Part shown: one piece after another, positions 42,874 through 49,995 of the stretch
Layout of the letters: every line of letters begins with the position of its first letter
Numbering within the stretch: position 1 is the first letter of the stretch
Assembly (NCBI RefSeq): GCF_002953935.1
Contig: NZ_CP026514.1
Span: 3,658,001 to 3,722,000, forward strand
Length of the DNA stretch: 64,000 nucleotides
DNA from: Arthrobacter sp. PGP41
GTDB taxonomy: Bacteria > Actinomycetota > Actinomycetes > Actinomycetales > Micrococcaceae
Direction: 5' to 3'
The notes under the pieces: generated by a model
What the model was told of the DNA's origin: nothing
Database searches by the model: none
Seen by the model: the letters and a program-made list of their open reading frames with translations, nothing else
Translations under genes and position numbers: made by a program

Positions 42874-44016
42874 TCACCATTCGAGGTCGACGGCGAGGAT
42901 CCGGTCATCCCCGGCGCGGGGATCGCCGCGGCCGTCGGTGTTGTTGGTCAGGATCCACAGCCGGCCGTCAGGGGCCAGCGCCACGTCCCGGATCCTGCCG
43001 TACTCACGGCTGAAATGCTCCGTGGATGTGGCGGGGTTGGAGACGGGGACGGACCGCAGGACCTGTCCGCGCAGGTTGGCCAGGAACAGTGTTCCGCCCG
43101 CATGGGCCATGCCGCTGGGGCTTGCGGCTCCGGGCTGCCACTGCTGCACCGGGTCCACGAAGCCCGGCCTGCCGGCGATGCCCTCCACCGTTGGCCAGCC
43201 GTAGTTGGCGCCGGGGGTGATGATGTTCAGCTCGTCCCACGTGTTCTGGCCGAACTCGGTGGCGAACATGGTTCCGTCGTCCGCCCACGCCAGGCCCTGC
43301 GGGTTGCGGTGGCCGTAGCTGTAGACCAGCGATCCCGGGTAGGGGTTGTCCGCCGGGACGCCACCGTCGGGAGTCATCCGCAGGATCTTTCCGGCGAGCG
43401 ACTCCCGGTCCTGGGCGCTGTCGCGCCGGCTCGCATCACCGGCCGTCACGTAGAGCATGCCGTCGGGACCGAAGGCGATCCGGCCGCCGTCGTGGATACT
43501 CGCGGACGGGATGCGTTCGAGGAGCGTGTCCGGCTGCCCCAGCGACAGTGAGCCCGGTTCGCCGTTGACCGGAAACCGCTGGACCCGGTTGCCGTCCGCC
43601 GCCGTCGAATACACGTACAGGTCGCCCTGGCTGCCAACGGCAAGGCCCAACAGCCCTGATTCTCCCCGTGCAGCTACACCCTGGACGGTCCCGATGGACC
43701 GCGCCGAGCCATCAGGGGAAAGTTCCAGGACCTGCCCGCTGTTCCGCTCGCTGACCAGCGGCGTCCCGTCGCGGAAGACCACCGACCACGGAGCCTTGAG
43801 GCCTGTGGCAACCGGCTGGGGCGTGCCGGCGATGGTGGCTGCCGCTGCGGGCGCGGGGTCAGTTGCGGGGACGGAGGACGCCGGAGCGGATGGAGGCGTG
43901 GAGGAGGTCGCCGGTGCAGGGGACGTGGTTGCCGGCGCGGGAGCCGGAGCGGCAGTGCAGCCAGCCAGCAGGATGCATGTGCCCGCGGCTGCCGCGGCGA
44001 GGACCCGGCGATCCAT
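42874..44016 (-). CDS. lipoprotein PQQ-type glucose/sorbosone dehydrogenase
   Basis: 380 residues. Lipoprotein signal with lipobox LLAGC (cysteine 20), an alanine/proline/threonine-rich linker of about 45 residues, then the six-bladed propeller of soluble quinoprotein sugar dehydrogenases: LKAPWSVVFRDG, SIHDGGRIAFGPDGMLYVTAGD, YGHRNPQGLAW, FGQNTWDELN. Oxidises an aldose at the outer face of the membrane if PQQ is available; many actinobacterial members have no demonstrated activity. Convergent with the XRE gene. Confidence 0.92.
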   Translation of the reverse strand: MDRRVLAAAAAGTCILLAGCTAAPAPAPATTSPAPATSSTPPSAPASSVPATDPAPAAAATIAGTPQPVATGLKAPWSVVFRDGTPLVSERNSGQVLELSPDGSARSIGTVQGVAARGESGLLGLAVGSQGDLYVYSTAADGNRVQRFPVNGEPGSLSLGQPDTLLERIPSASIHDGGRIAFGPDGMLYVTAGDASRRDSAQDRESLAGKILRMTPDGGVPADNPYPGSLVYSYGHRNPQGLAWADDGTMFATEFGQNTWDELNIITPGANYGWPTVEGIAGRPGFVDPVQQWQPGAASPSGMAHAGGTLFLANLRGQVLRSVPVSNPATSTEHFSREYGRIRDVALAPDGRLWILTNNTDGRGDPRAGDDRILAVDLEW

Positions 44017-44251
44017 GTGTTTCTCCTGTCAGCAACGTCCCACAACCCTTCCAGCCACATTAACCCGCATTGCGGACCATGGCGCCGCGTTGCCCGTTGT
44101 GACCCGCGAATGGCGCAATGAGTAGCGCCGTTTCGTCCTGTTGAGCTTCCGTTTCGCACTGCTGGCCAAGGCCTGGACAGGCGTGCTTAGGTGATTCAAC
44201 GGCACCGGCCAGGCCCATGAAAACAGCACCTGATACGAGAAGGAGGACCCG

Positions 44252-44356
44252 ATGCCTGACATCTCCAGCCGCGCGGACAGCGCCGCCACGTGGGGTCCGT
44301 GCTGTTGCAGCTTCCGAATGGTTCCGACCCGCCGAATGGCAGCAGACCGGCGCTAG
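44252..44356 (+). CDS. polycysteine upstream ORF / leader peptide (34 aa)
   Basis: ATG 44252 has an excellent Shine-Dalgarno (AGAAGGAGG, five bases away). The product starts MPDISSRADSAATWGP and then has three consecutive cysteine codons (TGC TGT TGC, 44300-44308), followed by SFRMVPTRRMAADRR and TAG. Polycysteine small ORFs that stall ribosomes when cysteine is scarce are known upstream of sulfur genes in mycobacteria. This one precedes an organosulfur acquisition operon, and its last codons (ACCGGCG, 44346-44352) can pair with the 3' arm of the downstream hairpin. Sensor role inferred; the ORF and cysteines are seen directly. Confidence 0.75.
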   Translation: MPDISSRADSAATWGPCCCSFRMVPTRRMAADRR

Positions 44357-44394
44357 CTTCGGCAGCAGTTCCACAGGTTCTCCGGCACAGGGTT

Positions 44395-44427
44395 CCGGCG
44401 CGTCGGGCGCATTCGCCCGACGCCGGT
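44395..44427 (+). terminator. attenuator hairpin upstream of the binding-protein gene
   Basis: GCGTCGGGCG (44400-44409) pairs perfectly with CGCCCGACGC (44414-44423) over a four-base loop; with a two-base bulge the stem extends through CCGG. A TACCCTCCTTTATCCC stretch follows. The 3' arm end CGCCGGT (44421-44427) is complementary to ACCGGCG in the upstream ORF, giving a mutually exclusive antiterminator. Confidence 0.6.
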
Positions 44428-44516
44428 ACCCTCCTTTATCCCTCCCCGCTTTCCCGGGTCACCGGGCGATTCGCCGCGCCCGGTCACCCGCCATTCCACC
44501 CTTCGAAAGGCATGCC

Positions 44517-45632
44517 ATGACCTTCCCTGCATTTTCCCCGCCCCAGTCGACCTCCGTCCGGCCGTTTACCCGCCGCAAGGCGCTGGGCGCACTCCTGGCC
44601 ATTCCCGTCGTCGGCCTCCTGACGGCCTGCGGCGGCACCGCCACAGCCGGCAACCCGGCCAGCCAGGCGTCGTTTGCCCCGCTCGCCACCTCAGTCCCCG
44701 CGGGGACCACCATCAAGGTAGGCGACCCCAGCATCCGCGTAGCCCTGGAATTGTCCGGCCTGATCAAGGACCTGGACGGCATCAACGTGGAATTCGCCAA
44801 CATCTCCGGCGGCCCGCAGACCACGGAGGCCTTCAGGGCCAACGCCCTGGACGTCGGTTCCGTGGCGGACATCCCGCCCATCCACGCAACATGGACCGGC
44901 CTGGACGTGCGGATCATCGCGAGCGCCTACCGCCAGGACGCCGTGAACCACCCGCTCTACGAACTGGGCGTCGCTCCCGGAGCCGGCATCGGCAAGCTGG
45001 AGGACCTGCGCGGCAAGAAGGTGGCGTACAGCCCCGGACAGGCACAGGGCGCCCTGGTCCTGCGGATCCTGGAGAAGGCCGGGCTCAAGCAGGAGGACGT
45101 CAAACTGGTGGAGCTCCCCAGCACCGGTGACGCCTACTCCTCGGCGCTGTCCAGCAAACAGGTGGATGCGGCGCCGCTGGGCGGGGTGCAGATCAAGCGC
45201 TACCTCGCCAAGTACAAGGCCGACGGCGCCACCACCCTCCGGCACGGCCTGCGGGATGATCCGGGACACCTGTACTCCCCCGCCAAGGTCCTGGCAGATC
45301 CCGCCAAGGCCGCCGCCCTGGCCAAGTACGTGGAGACCTGGGGAAAGGCCCAGCGGTGGATCGAGGACCACCCCAGGGAGTGGCTGGAGGGCTACTACGT
45401 CAAGGACCAGGGGCTTTCCGCCGAGGACGGGCAGTACCTGATCGACGCCGCGGGCAAGCGGGACGTTCCCACGTCCTGGACCGAGGCCATCGAACGCCAC
45501 CAGCAGACCAGCGACCTGCTGGCCCGGGAACAGAAGAAGCCGCAGTTGAAGGCAGGGGACCTCTACGACAGCCGTTACGAGGCCATCGCAGGCACGGCGT
45601 TCGCTGCGGCGGGCAAGGGCGGTGCAGCGTGA
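44517..45632 (+). CDS. ssuA: ABC transporter substrate-binding lipoprotein, sulfonate type
   Basis: 371 residues from ATG 44517 (GAAAGG upstream). Tat-lipoprotein signal: twin arginine in FTRRKALGALLA and lipobox LLTAC. The mature protein matches the SsuA/TauA/NrtA-type binding fold: PSIRVALELSGLIKDL, VEFANISGGPQTTEAF, DVGSVADIPPIHATW. Captures an aliphatic sulfonate or related organosulfur compound outside the membrane. Its stop overlaps the permease start. The monooxygenases downstream and the cysteine-rich leader upstream support the sulfur role. Confidence 0.88.
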   Translation: MTFPAFSPPQSTSVRPFTRRKALGALLAIPVVGLLTACGGTATAGNPASQASFAPLATSVPAGTTIKVGDPSIRVALELSGLIKDLDGINVEFANISGGPQTTEAFRANALDVGSVADIPPIHATWTGLDVRIIASAYRQDAVNHPLYELGVAPGAGIGKLEDLRGKKVAYSPGQAQGALVLRILEKAGLKQEDVKLVELPSTGDAYSSALSSKQVDAAPLGGVQIKRYLAKYKADGATTLRHGLRDDPGHLYSPAKVLADPAKAAALAKYVETWGKAQRWIEDHPREWLEGYYVKDQGLSAEDGQYLIDAAGKRDVPTSWTEAIERHQQTSDLLAREQKKPQLKAGDLYDSRYEAIAGTAFAAAGKGGAA

Positions 45633-46492
45633 GCGTCGCCCCTGTGCTGGAGCGCCCCGCCGTCGAACCGCACCTGGACCCGGCGCTCGCCGCGCGGGAG
45701 GATGTCCGGCCCACCGGCCGCCGGCTGGGACCAGGACGACGGCGGCAGCTGGCCTGGCTGCTGGGCCCCTCCGCCCTGCTGGGGCTTTGGACAGTCTCAT
45801 CCGCCACGGGGCTGCTGGATCCCCGGATCCTCTCCGAGCCCTGGACGGTGGTGGCAACCGCCGGGGAACTCCTCGCCGACGGCCGGCTGCAGGAAAACCT
45901 CGCCATCTCCGCCCAGCGGGCAGGGCTGGGGCTGTTCTTCGGCATCGTCGTCGGCGCACTGCTGGCCCTGCTGTCCGGGCTGAGCCGCGTGGGTGAGGCG
46001 CTCATCGACGGGCCGGTGCAGATCAAGCGCGCCATCCCCGGCCTGGCCCTGGTTCCGCTGCTCATCCTGTGGTTCGGCATCGACGAGACCATGAAGGTCC
46101 TCACCATCACCCTGGGCGTCTTTGTCCCGATCTACCTGCAGACACATGCCGGCCTTCGCGGGATCGACCTGCGCTATGTGGAGCTTGCCCAGACCGTGGG
46201 CCTTGGCCGCGCCGCCTTCATCCGCAAGGTGGTCCTCCCCGGCGCCCTCCCCGGTTTCTTCCTCGGCCTGCGCTTCGCGGTCACGGGCGCCTGGGTGTCG
46301 CTGGTGGTGGTGGAGCAGATCAACGCCACCAGCGGCATCGGCTACATGATGGAGCTCGCCCGCACCTATGGCCAGACCAACATCATCGTCCTCGGACTCG
46401 CCGTCTACGGCCTTCTCGGGCTCCTGTCCGACGGCGCCGTCCGCTTCTTCGAACGAAAGGCCCTCTCATGGCAGCGCACCCTGGCGGGCTGA
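45629..46492 (+). CDS. ssuC: ABC transporter permease, sulfonate type
   Basis: 287 residues from GTG 45629, overlapping the ssuA stop (GTGA). BPD_transp_1 permease with six predicted helices; the ATPase-contact EAA loop reads YVELAQTVGLGRAAFIRKVVLPGALPG, typical of SsuC/TauC. A polar N-terminal tail of about 38 residues precedes the first helix. Its last 25 bases overlap the ATPase gene. Confidence 0.9.
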   Translation: MSVAPVLERPAVEPHLDPALAAREDVRPTGRRLGPGRRRQLAWLLGPSALLGLWTVSSATGLLDPRILSEPWTVVATAGELLADGRLQENLAISAQRAGLGLFFGIVVGALLALLSGLSRVGEALIDGPVQIKRAIPGLALVPLLILWFGIDETMKVLTITLGVFVPIYLQTHAGLRGIDLRYVELAQTVGLGRAAFIRKVVLPGALPGFFLGLRFAVTGAWVSLVVVEQINATSGIGYMMELARTYGQTNIIVLGLAVYGLLGLLSDGAVRFFERKALSWQRTLAG

Positions 46493-47223
46493 CCGCCGTC
46501 GCCCCTTCCGGAACAATCAACGCAGTTTCGGTCCGCGGCCTGATCCGCAGCTTTGGCCCCAAAGGCGTCCTGAACGGCGTGGACCTGGACATTGCGCCGG
46601 GCGAGTTCGTGGCCCTGCTCGGTCCCAGCGGCTGCGGCAAGAGCACCCTGCTGCGGGCACTCGCCGGGCTGGACCACGACGTGCGCGGCAGCGGTGTGAT
46701 CACGGTCCCCGAGCGCGTGTCCGTGGTGTTCCAGGACTCCCGGCTGCTGCCGTGGGACAGCGTGCTGGGCAACGTCACCCTGGGGCTGCGGGAGCACGAC
46801 GCCGAGGCCCGGGCACGCAAGGCCCTCGCCGAAGTGGGGCTCGCCGGCCGCGAGAAGTCCTGGCCGCACGAGCTGTCCGGCGGCGAACAGCAGCGCGTGG
46901 CGCTGGCCCGCTCGCTGGTCCGTGAGCCGCAGCTGCTCCTGGCAGACGAACCGTTCGGCGCCCTCGATGCCCTCACCAGGATCAGGATGCACGGACTCCT
47001 CCGGGACCTCGTTGCCGCCCACCGGCCGGCTGTCCTGCTCGTGACGCACGACGTGGACGAGGCCATCGCACTCGCGGACCGGATCGTGGTCCTGGACAGC
47101 GGCCGCGTGTCCACTGTCCGCACCGTTTCTCCCGACGTCGGAACGGCAAGGGACGCAGCCGGCCACGAAGCCCTCCGCCGCGATCTCCTCACCGATCTTG
47201 GCGTCGTCGGCGCCAGCCACTAA
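46468..47223 (+). CDS. ssuB: ABC transporter ATP-binding protein, sulfonate type
   Basis: 251 residues from ATG 46468, within the end of the permease gene. Walker A GPSGCGKST (52-60), Q-loop VVFQDSRLLPW, signature LSGGEQQRVALARSL, Walker B LLLADEPFGALD, switch histidine in LLVTHDVDEA. The SRLLPW Q-loop is characteristic of the SsuB/TauB group. Powers organosulfur import with the two upstream proteins. Confidence 0.92.
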   Translation: MAAHPGGLTAVAPSGTINAVSVRGLIRSFGPKGVLNGVDLDIAPGEFVALLGPSGCGKSTLLRALAGLDHDVRGSGVITVPERVSVVFQDSRLLPWDSVLGNVTLGLREHDAEARARKALAEVGLAGREKSWPHELSGGEQQRVALARSLVREPQLLLADEPFGALDALTRIRMHGLLRDLVAAHRPAVLLVTHDVDEAIALADRIVVLDSGRVSTVRTVSPDVGTARDAAGHEALRRDLLTDLGVVGASH

Positions 47224-47248: not shown

Positions 47249-48628
47249 ATGACTGCCACCACTCGTCCCTACCGCCAACTCCACCTCAACGCCTTCCTGA
47301 TGAGCACCGGCCACCACGAGGCATCGTGGCGGCTGCCCGAAAGCGACCCGCATTCCAACACCAACGTGGAGCACTACAGGCAACTGGCCCGCACCGCCGA
47401 ACGCGGCAAGCTGGACTCCATCTTCTTCGCCGACTCACCCGTCCTTTTCGGCGAGGTGGGCCGCCGCCCGGCCGGCAAGCTCGAGCCCACGGTGCTGCTG
47501 ACCGCCATCGCCGGCGCCACGGAACGCATCGGGCTGATCGCCACGGCCTCCACCACCTACAACGATCCCTTCAACCTGGCCCGCCGCTTCGCCTCCGTGG
47601 ACTGGGTGAGCGGTGGCCGCGCCGGCTGGAATGTGGTCACCACCGCCGGTCCGGACGCCGCCCGCAACTTCGGCGTGGACGACCAGCCCGCCCACGCTAC
47701 CCGGTACGAACGTGCCGCAGAGTTTATCGAGGTGGCGCAGAAGCTGTGGGACAGCTGGCAGGACGACGCCGTGCCCGCGGACAAGGCGGAGGGCGTCTGG
47801 GGCGACGCCGAAAAGATCCGCGTGATCGACCACGAGGGCAAGCACTTCAAGGTCCGCGGCCCCCTCAACGTCCCCCGCCCGCCGCAGGGGCATCCGCTGA
47901 TTGTGCAGGCCGGATCCTCCGAGGACGGCAAGAAACTCGCCGCCCGGTACGCGGACGCCGTCTTCACCGCGCACCAGACCCTCGCCGACGCGCAGGAGTT
48001 CTACCGCGATTTGAAGGCCCGCACCGCCGCCGCCGCCGGCCGCGACCCGGAGGCCATCAAGATCCTTCCGGGCATCGTGCCGGTCATCGGCGCCACGGAG
48101 GAAGAGTCACTGGAGCTGGAGCGGGAACTGGACCGGCTGATCAAGCCCGAGTACGCCAGGATCCAGCTGGCCAAGACGCTCCGGGTGGCACCGGAGGACC
48201 TGCCCCTGGACCGCCAGCTGCCCGAGGACCTGCCCGGCGAGGACGAGATCGAGGGGGCCAAGAGCCGCTACACCCTGATCGTCCAGCTCGCCCGCAGGGA
48301 GCAGCTCACGGTGCGGCAGCTCATCGGCCGGCTGGGCGGAGGCCGCGGCCACCGCACCTTCACCGGCACCCCAATACAGGTGGCGGACGCCATCCAGGAA
48401 TGGTTCGACGGCGGCGCGGCAGACGGCTTCAACATCATGCCGCCGGTGCTCCCCTCGGGCCTGGAAGCATTCGTGGACCAGGTGGTGCCCATCCTGCAGG
48501 AGCGCGGCCTGTTCCGCACCGAATACAGCGGGGCCACCCTGCGCGAGCACTACGGCCTGGCCCGTCCGGAGAACCGCTTCGCGGGTGCGGCGGCGGCCGA
48601 ACTGGCCTCGATCGGCGGTGCATTCTGA
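47249..48628 (+). CDS. FMN-dependent LLM monooxygenase (NtaA/SnaA/DszA type), copy 1
   Basis: 459 residues from ATG 47249. Long-form luciferase-like monooxygenase: LNAFLMSTGHHEASWR, LDSIFFADSP, ERIGLIATASTTYNDPFNLAR, SGGRAGWNVVTT, and HPLIVQAGSS. Uses FMNH2 supplied by a separate reductase. In sulfur operons this family attacks C-S bonds of organosulfur compounds, releasing sulfite. No flavin reductase is encoded in the operon. Stop overlaps the next gene by one base (TGATG). Confidence 0.9.
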   Translation: MTATTRPYRQLHLNAFLMSTGHHEASWRLPESDPHSNTNVEHYRQLARTAERGKLDSIFFADSPVLFGEVGRRPAGKLEPTVLLTAIAGATERIGLIATASTTYNDPFNLARRFASVDWVSGGRAGWNVVTTAGPDAARNFGVDDQPAHATRYERAAEFIEVAQKLWDSWQDDAVPADKAEGVWGDAEKIRVIDHEGKHFKVRGPLNVPRPPQGHPLIVQAGSSEDGKKLAARYADAVFTAHQTLADAQEFYRDLKARTAAAAGRDPEAIKILPGIVPVIGATEEESLELERELDRLIKPEYARIQLAKTLRVAPEDLPLDRQLPEDLPGEDEIEGAKSRYTLIVQLARREQLTVRQLIGRLGGGRGHRTFTGTPIQVADAIQEWFDGGAADGFNIMPPVLPSGLEAFVDQVVPILQERGLFRTEYSGATLREHYGLARPENRFAGAAAAELASIGGAF

Positions 48629-49995
48629 TGGGCCGGCAGCTGAAACTCAACCTGTTCATCTACCCGGGCGGCCACCACGAGGCCGCCTGGCGGCACCCGA
48701 AGTCCCGGACGGACCGCCTGCTGGATATCCGTTTCTACCAGGAGCTGGCCCAGCGCGCTGAGGCGGCCAAGCTGGATGCGGTGTTCTTCGCGGACGGTCC
48801 CGCGCTGGAGAGCAACGTGCAGTACGCCACCCGGTTCCGGCTGGAGCCGTTCACCTGGCTGTCAGCGATTGCCGTCGCCACGGAACGGATCGGCCTGATC
48901 GGCACCGCCAGCACCACCTACCTGGAGCCGTACAACGCGGCACGGCTGTTCGCGTCGCTGGACCACCTCAGCAACGGCCGGGCGGGCTGGAACATCGTCA
49001 CCACCGGAGCGGAAGGCGCGGCCCGGAACTTCGGGCTGGACGAGCACCCGCCGCACGCGGAGCGCTACGCCCGCGCGGACGAGTTTGTCCGTGTGGCCGG
49101 CAAACTGTGGGACAGCTGGGAGGACGGGGCGGTGGTTGCCGACACTGACACCGGGATCTTCGCTGACGCCTCCCGGATCCATCCGGTAGAGCATGAGGGC
49201 AGGTACTTCCGCGTGGAGGGTCCGCTGAACACCCCGCGTTCCCCGCAGGGCAGGCCGGTGTTCGTGCAGGCCGGGTCATCCGCTGACGGCAAGGCCTTCG
49301 CTGCCCGGCACGCCGAGGCTGTGTTTACCGCCCACCAGACCCTGCAAAGCGCGCAGGGGTTCTATGCGGACATCAAGGCGCAGGCCGCGGCGAACGGCCG
49401 GGACCCGGGGCACCTCCTGGTGCTGCCGGGCATCAGCCCCTACCTGGGCTCCACCGAGGCGGAGGCCCGCGCCCTGAAGCAGGAGTTCGACGAGCTGACG
49501 CAGCCGGAGTACGGGCTGGGCATCCTGCGCAAGCTGCTCGGCGTTGACCTGGACGGCGTGAAGCTGGATGAGCCCTTCCCTGCCGGGCTCCTGGCTGAAG
49601 CAGGGCAAGCGGGAAGCCGCAGCCAGCTGGTTCTTGACGTCATCCGGCGGGAGGGCCCCACTGTGCGCCAGCTCCTTCACCGGTTTGCCGGGGCCCGCGG
49701 GCATTATGTCTTCGCCGGAACCCCGGTACAGGTGGCGGACGAGATCCAGCGCTGGTTTGAGGACGGCGCAGCCGACGGATTCAACATCATGCCGCCGTGG
49801 CTGCCCGGCGGCTTCGAGTCCTTCGCGGAGGAAGTGGTTCCCATACTGCAGTCCCGCGGCCTCTTCCGCACCGAGTACACGGGCCGGACACTGCGTGGGC
49901 ATTTCGGCCTGGACCGTCCCGCAAGCCGCTACAGCCGGGCGCAGTCCAGTCCTGCCGACCAAAACAGCCATCAAATACTAGGGGCGCCCGCATGA
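48628..49995 (+). CDS. FMN-dependent LLM monooxygenase (NtaA/SnaA/DszA type), copy 2
   Basis: 455 residues. Clear paralogue of the preceding gene, colinear throughout: LNLFIYPGGHHEAAWR, LDAVFFADGP, ERIGLIGTASTTYLEPYNAAR, NGRAGWNIVTTGAEGAARNFG, and the shared DGFNIMPPWLPGG end. The pair arose by tandem duplication and may act on different substrates or as a heteromer. Translationally coupled to copy 1. A 27-codon frame overlaps its stop (ATGA at 49992) but looks like a remnant at most. Confidence 0.9.
   Translation: MGRQLKLNLFIYPGGHHEAAWRHPKSRTDRLLDIRFYQELAQRAEAAKLDAVFFADGPALESNVQYATRFRLEPFTWLSAIAVATERIGLIGTASTTYLEPYNAARLFASLDHLSNGRAGWNIVTTGAEGAARNFGLDEHPPHAERYARADEFVRVAGKLWDSWEDGAVVADTDTGIFADASRIHPVEHEGRYFRVEGPLNTPRSPQGRPVFVQAGSSADGKAFAARHAEAVFTAHQTLQSAQGFYADIKAQAAANGRDPGHLLVLPGISPYLGSTEAEARALKQEFDELTQPEYGLGILRKLLGVDLDGVKLDEPFPAGLLAEAGQAGSRSQLVLDVIRREGPTVRQLLHRFAGARGHYVFAGTPVQVADEIQRWFEDGAADGFNIMPPWLPGGFESFAEEVVPILQSRGLFRTEYTGRTLRGHFGLDRPASRYSRAQSSPADQNSHQILGAPA

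Follow-up and report, generated by a model that had tools for sequence, protein, structure and literature searches.

The window analysed here, a 64,000-nt stretch of an Arthrobacter chromosome, contains a short open reading frame with three cysteine codons in a row upstream of genes for a sulfonate-type transporter. This arrangement raises the question of whether the ribosomes that read the frame report on the cysteine supply and, if they do, by what means the result reaches the genes downstream.

The leader ORF and the genes behind it

The features of the leader and of the operon are as follows, SD standing for Shine-Dalgarno sequence, uORF for the leader ORF and SBP for substrate-binding protein.

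44182..44202, + strand: promoter-like or operator box (CGTGCTTAGGTGATTCAACGG; CCGTGYTTAGGTGTTTCCACGG in many relatives), found by eye, putative promoter
44240..44246, + strand: SD of the leader ORF, AAGGAGG, with a 5-nt spacer to the ATG (sequence read)
44252..44356, + strand: leader ORF of the Cys-codon type, 34 codons (MPDISSRADSAATWGPCCCSFRMVPTRRMAADRR), ATG at 44252 and TAG at 44354-44356 (sequence read)
44300..44308, + strand: presumed sensing codons, TGC (44300-44302), TGT (44303-44305) and TGC (44306-44308)
44505..44510, + strand: SD of the SBP gene, GAAAGG (sequence read)
44517..45632, + strand: SBP, sulfonate-type (TIGR01728 SsuA_fam, 1.8e-28, below the curated cut-off)
45629..46492, + strand: ABC permease, SsuC-like (NF008470, 1.9e-62, below cut-off)
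46468..47223, + strand: ABC ATPase, SsuB-like (NF008420, 8.4e-67, below cut-off)
47249..48628, + strand: FMN monooxygenase 1, NtaA/DmoA-family (TIGR03860, 2.5e-168, over cut-off)
48628..49995, + strand: FMN monooxygenase 2, NtaA/DmoA-family (TIGR03860, 6.4e-174, over cut-off)

The 34 codons, the strong SD and the three consecutive Cys codons had been described in a first-pass annotation of the window, and all are present where it had placed them; 15 codons follow the Cys run before the stop. Judged by its sequence, this SD-led Cys-codon leader ORF is beyond chance. An exact AGGAGG followed by an ATG and an ORF of 8-60 codons with three adjacent Cys codons (CCC) is found a single time in the window and in none of 60 windows generated from a second-order Markov model, and the same test with two adjacent Cys codons (CC) in place of CCC gave at least one ORF in 8 of the 60. 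In a composition-based sample of 30 ORFs from the window, about 7 codons in 1000 encode Cys, and TGT makes up 9 of these 80 Cys codons. When the leader peptide was compared with NCBIfam, a search in which very short queries are weakly detected, no family matched at E<=1.

The strong SD of its own makes it probable that the leader ORF lies on a leadered transcript, and this SD, the 5-nt spacing and a promoter-like box that ends about 50 nt upstream argue against a leaderless one. The box is found by eye upstream of SBP both in relatives that carry the uORF and in those that do not, and a sigma-70 consensus scan gave no match at it. It also contains a dyad, CCGTG-N12-CACGG, which is clearest in relatives, is kept with and without the uORF and is possibly the operator of a regulator.

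Downstream of the leader, profile matches bear out the sulfonate-type ABC transporter and the two FMN monooxygenases that the first pass had named. SBP has a structural relative in an aliphatic sulphonate-binding protein (PDB 2x26, 4.7e-13), and the PDB relatives of both tandem monooxygenases (47249-49995) include YtnJ/MoxC, nitrilotriacetate monooxygenase and DszA. Because of the families to which the transporter and monooxygenase genes belong, the operon is likely to serve organosulfur use or sulfur scavenging. Its composition was followed in 17 named loci: SBP, permease and ATPase are present in all 17, monooxygenase 1 in 15 (it was missing from L051 and from L053, the latter a short contig), and monooxygenase 2 stands as a separate neighbour in 5. 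By best matches, none of the operon genes examined is metal-related.

Conservation and history of the leader in the genus

An ortholog of SBP was found in 37 of 198 same-genus genomes at E<=1e-60 and in 38 at E<=1e-120 in a run of 206 genomes, which adds two genomes and drops one with a split SBP gene, giving 39 loci for examination. The first-pass proposal had been staked on conservation of the ORF and its cysteine codons in close relatives, to be looked for by aligning the leaders. Indeed, an SD-led uORF with adjacent Cys codons lies upstream of SBP in 23 of the 39 loci, and its bearers include Pseudarthrobacter chlorophenolicus, Arthrobacter sp. Leaf137 and P2b, and Paenarthrobacter nitroguajacolicus. 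The GGAGGA of the leader SD is invariant in both leader alignments and is found in 23/23 leaders with adjacent Cys codons. A further 3/39 loci (L010, L014, L021) have an SD-led leader with reduced Cys content, and the uORF is absent by the criteria used in 13/39; since these 13 loci do without it and those three without adjacent Cys codons, the uORF is dispensable. In L010, L014 and L021 the SD, the start and a CGA-ATG motif are retained and the adjacent Cys codons are gone, and these leaders can be viewed as natural degraded versions.

Groups A, B and C of uORF-bearing loci are distinguished by leader similarity. Group A, that of the window, has seven members (L007, L008, L044, L015, L017, L018 and L025) and is not a clade in the SBP tree, while group C has six (L036-L041), Paenarthrobacter among them. 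Over all pairs within groups, the synonymous to non-synonymous substitutions in the uORF number 0:3, 17:24, 5:8, 17:77 (group B) and 48:126; these within-group pair counts hold no synonymous excess, and the substitution pattern leaves coding as such unsupported. Gaps inside the uORF measure 3 or 6 nt (alignments A2 and A3). The drift of the peptide beside Cys codons that are kept implies that the Cys codons, and not the peptide, are conserved. The spacers of group A are 158-162 nt long, on account of which an N-terminal extension of SBP from an ATG at 44217 was rejected.

Two further regularities were noticed by inspection of the leaders. The rare TGT is part of each adjacent Cys pair in the leaders listed, the exception being an extra TGC TGC pair in L051. 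In addition, 15 leaders were seen by eye to have CGA-ATG just 3' of their Cys codons (44315-44320 and 44333-44338 in the window), and most group-A leaders have it twice; CGA is a rare codon, with a frequency of 1.7 per 1000 in the sampled ORFs.

From these data the leader is probably a conserved sensor of the cysteine supply. The joint explanation that we favour, and hold to be probable, is that ribosomes reading the uORF sense charged tRNA-Cys and thereby control the organosulfur operon, with the readout in the window's group made at transcript elongation. With enough cysteine, the ribosome would pass the Cys codons, with the operon kept at low expression; when Cys-tRNA is short, it would pause at 44300-44308 and the operon would be turned on. 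Translation of the leader ORF, the stalling and the direction of this control are what we infer from the arrangement.

Two other accounts of the uORF bear on the same observations. Proteobacteria have upstream ORFs, or nascent proteins, that contain Cys motifs and respond to metals, and the uORF might likewise sense metal or redox state through nascent Cys residues, or act through the peptide itself, in place of sensing charged tRNA-Cys. One such case, responsive to copper, is reported (PMC9973294). We nevertheless think this very improbable for the present leaders, where only the adjacent Cys codons (and CGA-ATG in many leaders) are exempt from the drift of the peptide, where the operon genes examined are those of transport and oxidation, none of them metal-related by best matches, and where a relative stands under a SAM riboswitch. 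According to the second account, translation of the uORF serves no sensing, and the operon is controlled by promoter and regulator alone. This would agree with the 13/39 loci that keep SBP without a uORF, those aligned among them also keeping the promoter-like box, but it is rendered quite unlikely by the adjacent Cys codons, which are kept across lineages while their neighbours change, in a setting where Cys makes up about 7 of 1000 codons.

How the leader came to be distributed in this way was approached with a tree of SBP, made from 36 in-genus proteins and one relative (34 inner branches, 9 starred and 11 open), in which the uORF-bearing L038 and L040 and the uORF-less L042 are not included. 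The uORF-bearing L015 group (100/99) and a uORF-less clade of 11 rows (98/94) are sisters inside a 98/95 clade, and this is nested in a mixed set with weaker support (83/79, 84/81). By parsimony, the uORF would be ancestral and would have been lost twice, in the 11-row clade and in L032; the long root branch and the many weak forks make this a parsimony reading and not a proof. Leaders of the uORF-less clade are 179-203 nt long against 380-387 nt in the sister group, and in the five uORF-less leaders that were aligned both the uORF and the hairpin T1 described below are missing and the promoter-like box is kept. By eye, uORF-less leaders have other GC-rich hairpin-like sequences.

In another genus of the same bacterial family, an SBP relative (52% identical; G426) is preceded by a known regulatory RNA.

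L077 1320-1434 / L078 469-583 (G426): SAM riboswitch, RF00162 (Rfam match, 50.1 bits)

This was the sole Rfam match among 15 loci, uORF-less ones included, and the window gave none, RF00162 included. The leader ORF and the SAM riboswitch would answer the same need.

Hairpins and the readout of the proposed sensor

Three elements between the uORF and SBP, or overlapping the end of the uORF, were considered as parts of the readout.

44331..44363, + strand: hairpin P1, GCCGAA...TTCGGC, spanning the uORF stop (group-A consensus fold)
44395..44426, + strand: hairpin T1, CCGGC/GCCGG plus GTCGGGCG/CGCCCGAC, with a 2-nt bulge and the loop CATT (-24.6 kcal/mol)
44424..44461, + strand: C-rich, G-poor stretch, a possible Rho loading region (bounds by eye)

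T1 is the hairpin on which the first-pass annotation had built a cysteine-sensing attenuator. In that proposal, T1 would act as an intrinsic terminator, and ACCGGCG (44346-44352), at the end of the uORF, would, once a ribosome has stalled at the Cys codons, pair with CGCCGGT (44421-44427) and so antiterminate. Both the GC-rich hairpin and the complementarity are as it had described them, and T1, a strong hairpin, is present in 7/7 group-A leaders, one of its 12 counted pairs occurring as GC, GU and AU. This one pair is what a check of covariation, also proposed in the first pass, brought out in favour of the pairings; the complement is altered in 4/7 group-A leaders, which have CACGGCG in place of ACCGGCG. 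P1 is nearly invariant in 7/7 group-A leaders, with one pair broken in one sequence, and this near-invariance leaves no covariation. Taking P1, T1 and T2 together, 1 of 24 pairs covaries, a value that was equally high in 282 of 500 column shuffles, and sliding the pairing partners against each other lowered pairing from 98.8% to 45% or less.

The switch itself was not borne out. The tail of T1 (TACCCTCCTTTATCC) has no U-tract, and a consensus scan of 43900-45000 gave no intrinsic-terminator-like site. In folding of the 7/7 group-A leaders the inner stem of T1 has a probability of >=0.93 whether the leader is free, carries a ribosome stalled at the Cys codons or carries one at the stop codon, and the antiterminator pairing of 44346-44352 with 44421-44427 has a predicted probability of 0.00 throughout; in L008, L044 and L017 the outer pairs of T1 are weak, at 0.00-0.30 whatever the ribosome state. 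Moreover, the CGCCGGT arm is the last to be transcribed, and ACCGGCG consequently cannot pre-empt T1. Folding of truncated transcripts revealed no shared alternative antiterminator with the 5' arm of T1, this arm being paired at 0.21-0.80 with partners that vary by sequence. We thus regard a T1 terminator relieved by this antiterminator as extremely unlikely. Of the attenuator, the Cys-codon leader before a likely sulfur operon stands and the stall-dependent hairpin switch does not. A pairing of the uORF start with the SBP SD region, suggested by RNAalifold for group A, was dropped, being absent by eye in the other groups.

If T1 is not the switch, a stalled ribosome might instead act on translation of SBP, as in a mycobacterial type of translational attenuation in which the uORF sequesters the SBP SD until a stalled ribosome blocks the uORF. 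Such a device is indeed suggested by group C: the stretch GCCTTCAG, which begins 13 nt from the opening base of the first Cys codon, complements CTGAAAGGC, located at the SBP SD. The anti-SD:SD duplex has one bulged A and amounts to -11.1 to -11.3 kcal/mol in 6/6 leaders, in each of which 0.5-2% of dinucleotide shuffles are as strong, the six rows being related, and the minimum-energy fold uses the pairing in 5/6 (by eye). The pairing is invariant, for which reason covariation cannot test it. With a ribosome modelled at the last Cys codon, the SD costs 1.5-4.1 kcal/mol less to open in L037, L038, L039 and L040, almost the same in L041 and more in L036; when the ribosome is placed at the first Cys codon instead, the drop is clear in L038 alone. 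According to these models, the readout in group C is probably release of the sequestered SBP SD.

For the window's own lineage, the clear complement in 6/6 leaders of group C, its modelled release in 4/6 and the report of this kind of control in mycobacteria (PMC9031893) all speak for the same device, but we consider it unlikely there. In 16 leaders outside group C (without L044), a uORF-SD duplex as strong was obtained from 11.5-95.5% of shuffles. In folding of the window's leader, opening the SBP SD costs 4.5 kcal/mol without a ribosome stalled at Cys and 4.6 kcal/mol with one, and in 13 leaders (groups A and B and L009/L031) the Cys stall changes this cost by <=2 kcal/mol with no common direction. 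Likewise, folding of group A revealed no pairing that depends on the position of the ribosome.

Since SD sequestration was not seen in the window's group, a readout at transcript elongation is preferred there. This control would run through the untranslated C-rich leader with P1 and T1 and would most likely be of the Rho type, to which, granted the joint explanation, we give somewhat less than an even chance. Ranked by C minus G, the best 70-mer between uORF and SBP, with the best position taken, belongs to the highest 0.25% of all 70-mers of the window; the C-rich bias is equally strong in uORF-less leaders.

The readout appears to differ by lineage. We propose, tentatively and with more doubt than belief, that a single genus holds one conserved Cys-sensing leader ORF with different output devices by lineage: SD sequestration in the group that includes Paenarthrobacter, attenuation at the transcript level by a non-canonical device with P1 and T1 in that of the window, joint loss of uORF and T1 in a third group and, in another genus, a SAM riboswitch at the same place. 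If true, this would be a natural series in which a ribosome-based sensor is rewired while its input stays fixed. As the sensor is kept while the leader downstream of it is rebuilt or lost, the genus would offer matched natural leaders (with, with degraded and without uORF) in which to follow how a leader is coupled to expression without a recognisable intrinsic terminator.

Related systems and other loci

Mycobacterial polycysteine leaderless short ORFs that work by attenuation were reportedly described by Canestrari et al. in 2020. That polycysteine work is cited in PMC13236596 and PMC9094748, and PMC9031893 gives the logic of the mycobacterial ORFs as SD release, i.e. translational attenuation. 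The present leader resembles them in being a short upstream ORF with contiguous Cys codons before sulfur genes in an actinobacterium, and their SD-release readout resembles our prediction for group C. In contrast to them, it has a strong SD of its own and precedes an operon of an Ssu-like transporter and FMN monooxygenases, and folding revealed no SD sequestration in the window's group.

The first pass had been cautious about novelty, and fairly so, as Cys-run leader ORFs have been predicted before. Seliverstov et al. (2005; PMC1262725) place Cys-run leader peptides upstream of cys operons in Mycobacterium and P. acnes, as well as ahead of cbs in B. longum. For these candidates, which have no obvious terminator, they suggest Rho. 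Runs of Cys codons and the absence of an obvious terminator are thus common to both; theirs lie near the stop codon and before cys or cbs (PMC1262725), whereas the present run has 15 more codons behind it and precedes an operon of organosulfur uptake. The word Arthrobacter is absent from their text (PMC1262725). Our literature searches, mainly of openly accessible journals, returned no recognised report of leader ORFs with Cys codons, either in relatives of Arthrobacter or before an Ssu-type operon. On the present reading, the sensing of cysteine by ribosomes would reach beyond mycobacteria to SD-led leaders of Arthrobacter-type soil bacteria and to organosulfur scavenging.

Like the classical trp and his attenuators, the leader has its regulatory codons inside an ORF and hairpins after it, but an intrinsic terminator with a mutually exclusive antiterminator, as those have, was not found here by the scan or in equilibrium and truncated-transcript folds. 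The SAM riboswitch RF00162 takes the position of the leader in another genus, ahead of a gene related to the first one of the operon; it differs in being a metabolite-binding RNA without a leader ORF, and the window has no Rfam match.

Whether similar leaders stand elsewhere was addressed with a sequence-only leader model, built from 14 leaders and searched in the 206 genus genomes. All 17 matches at E<1e-10 are upstream of SBP; 14 of them are the leaders that built the model, and the three others are in G057, G099 and G201, that in G201 being nearly identical to a model row. At E<=0.05, strong matches included, 116/206 genomes have a match. Among the matches listed, the weaker ones (E 1e-4 to 0.05) comprise further SBP loci and much probable noise, and of ten weak matches away from the operon nine have no CC ORF nearby. 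In the window's genome, we also inspected the 700 nt upstream of the profile match or ORF of eight other genes (five SsuA-family matches, one sulfite reductase recognised by eye and two cysK-family matches) and found no SD-led CC leader, the one CC ORF present having a GTG start and no SD; over the whole loci of these genes there are just two TTG-start CC ORFs, with weaker SDs. A regulon beyond this operon was rejected on these ten weak matches and eight upstream regions, although leaderless ORFs or leaders placed farther upstream may exist. In one other genome (G030), a weak match to the leader model at L102 (about 1500-1800) has AGGAGGACCCG and a short CC-containing ORF whose starts are without a well-spaced SD, and by eye this ORF lies upstream of an aminotransferase-like gene.
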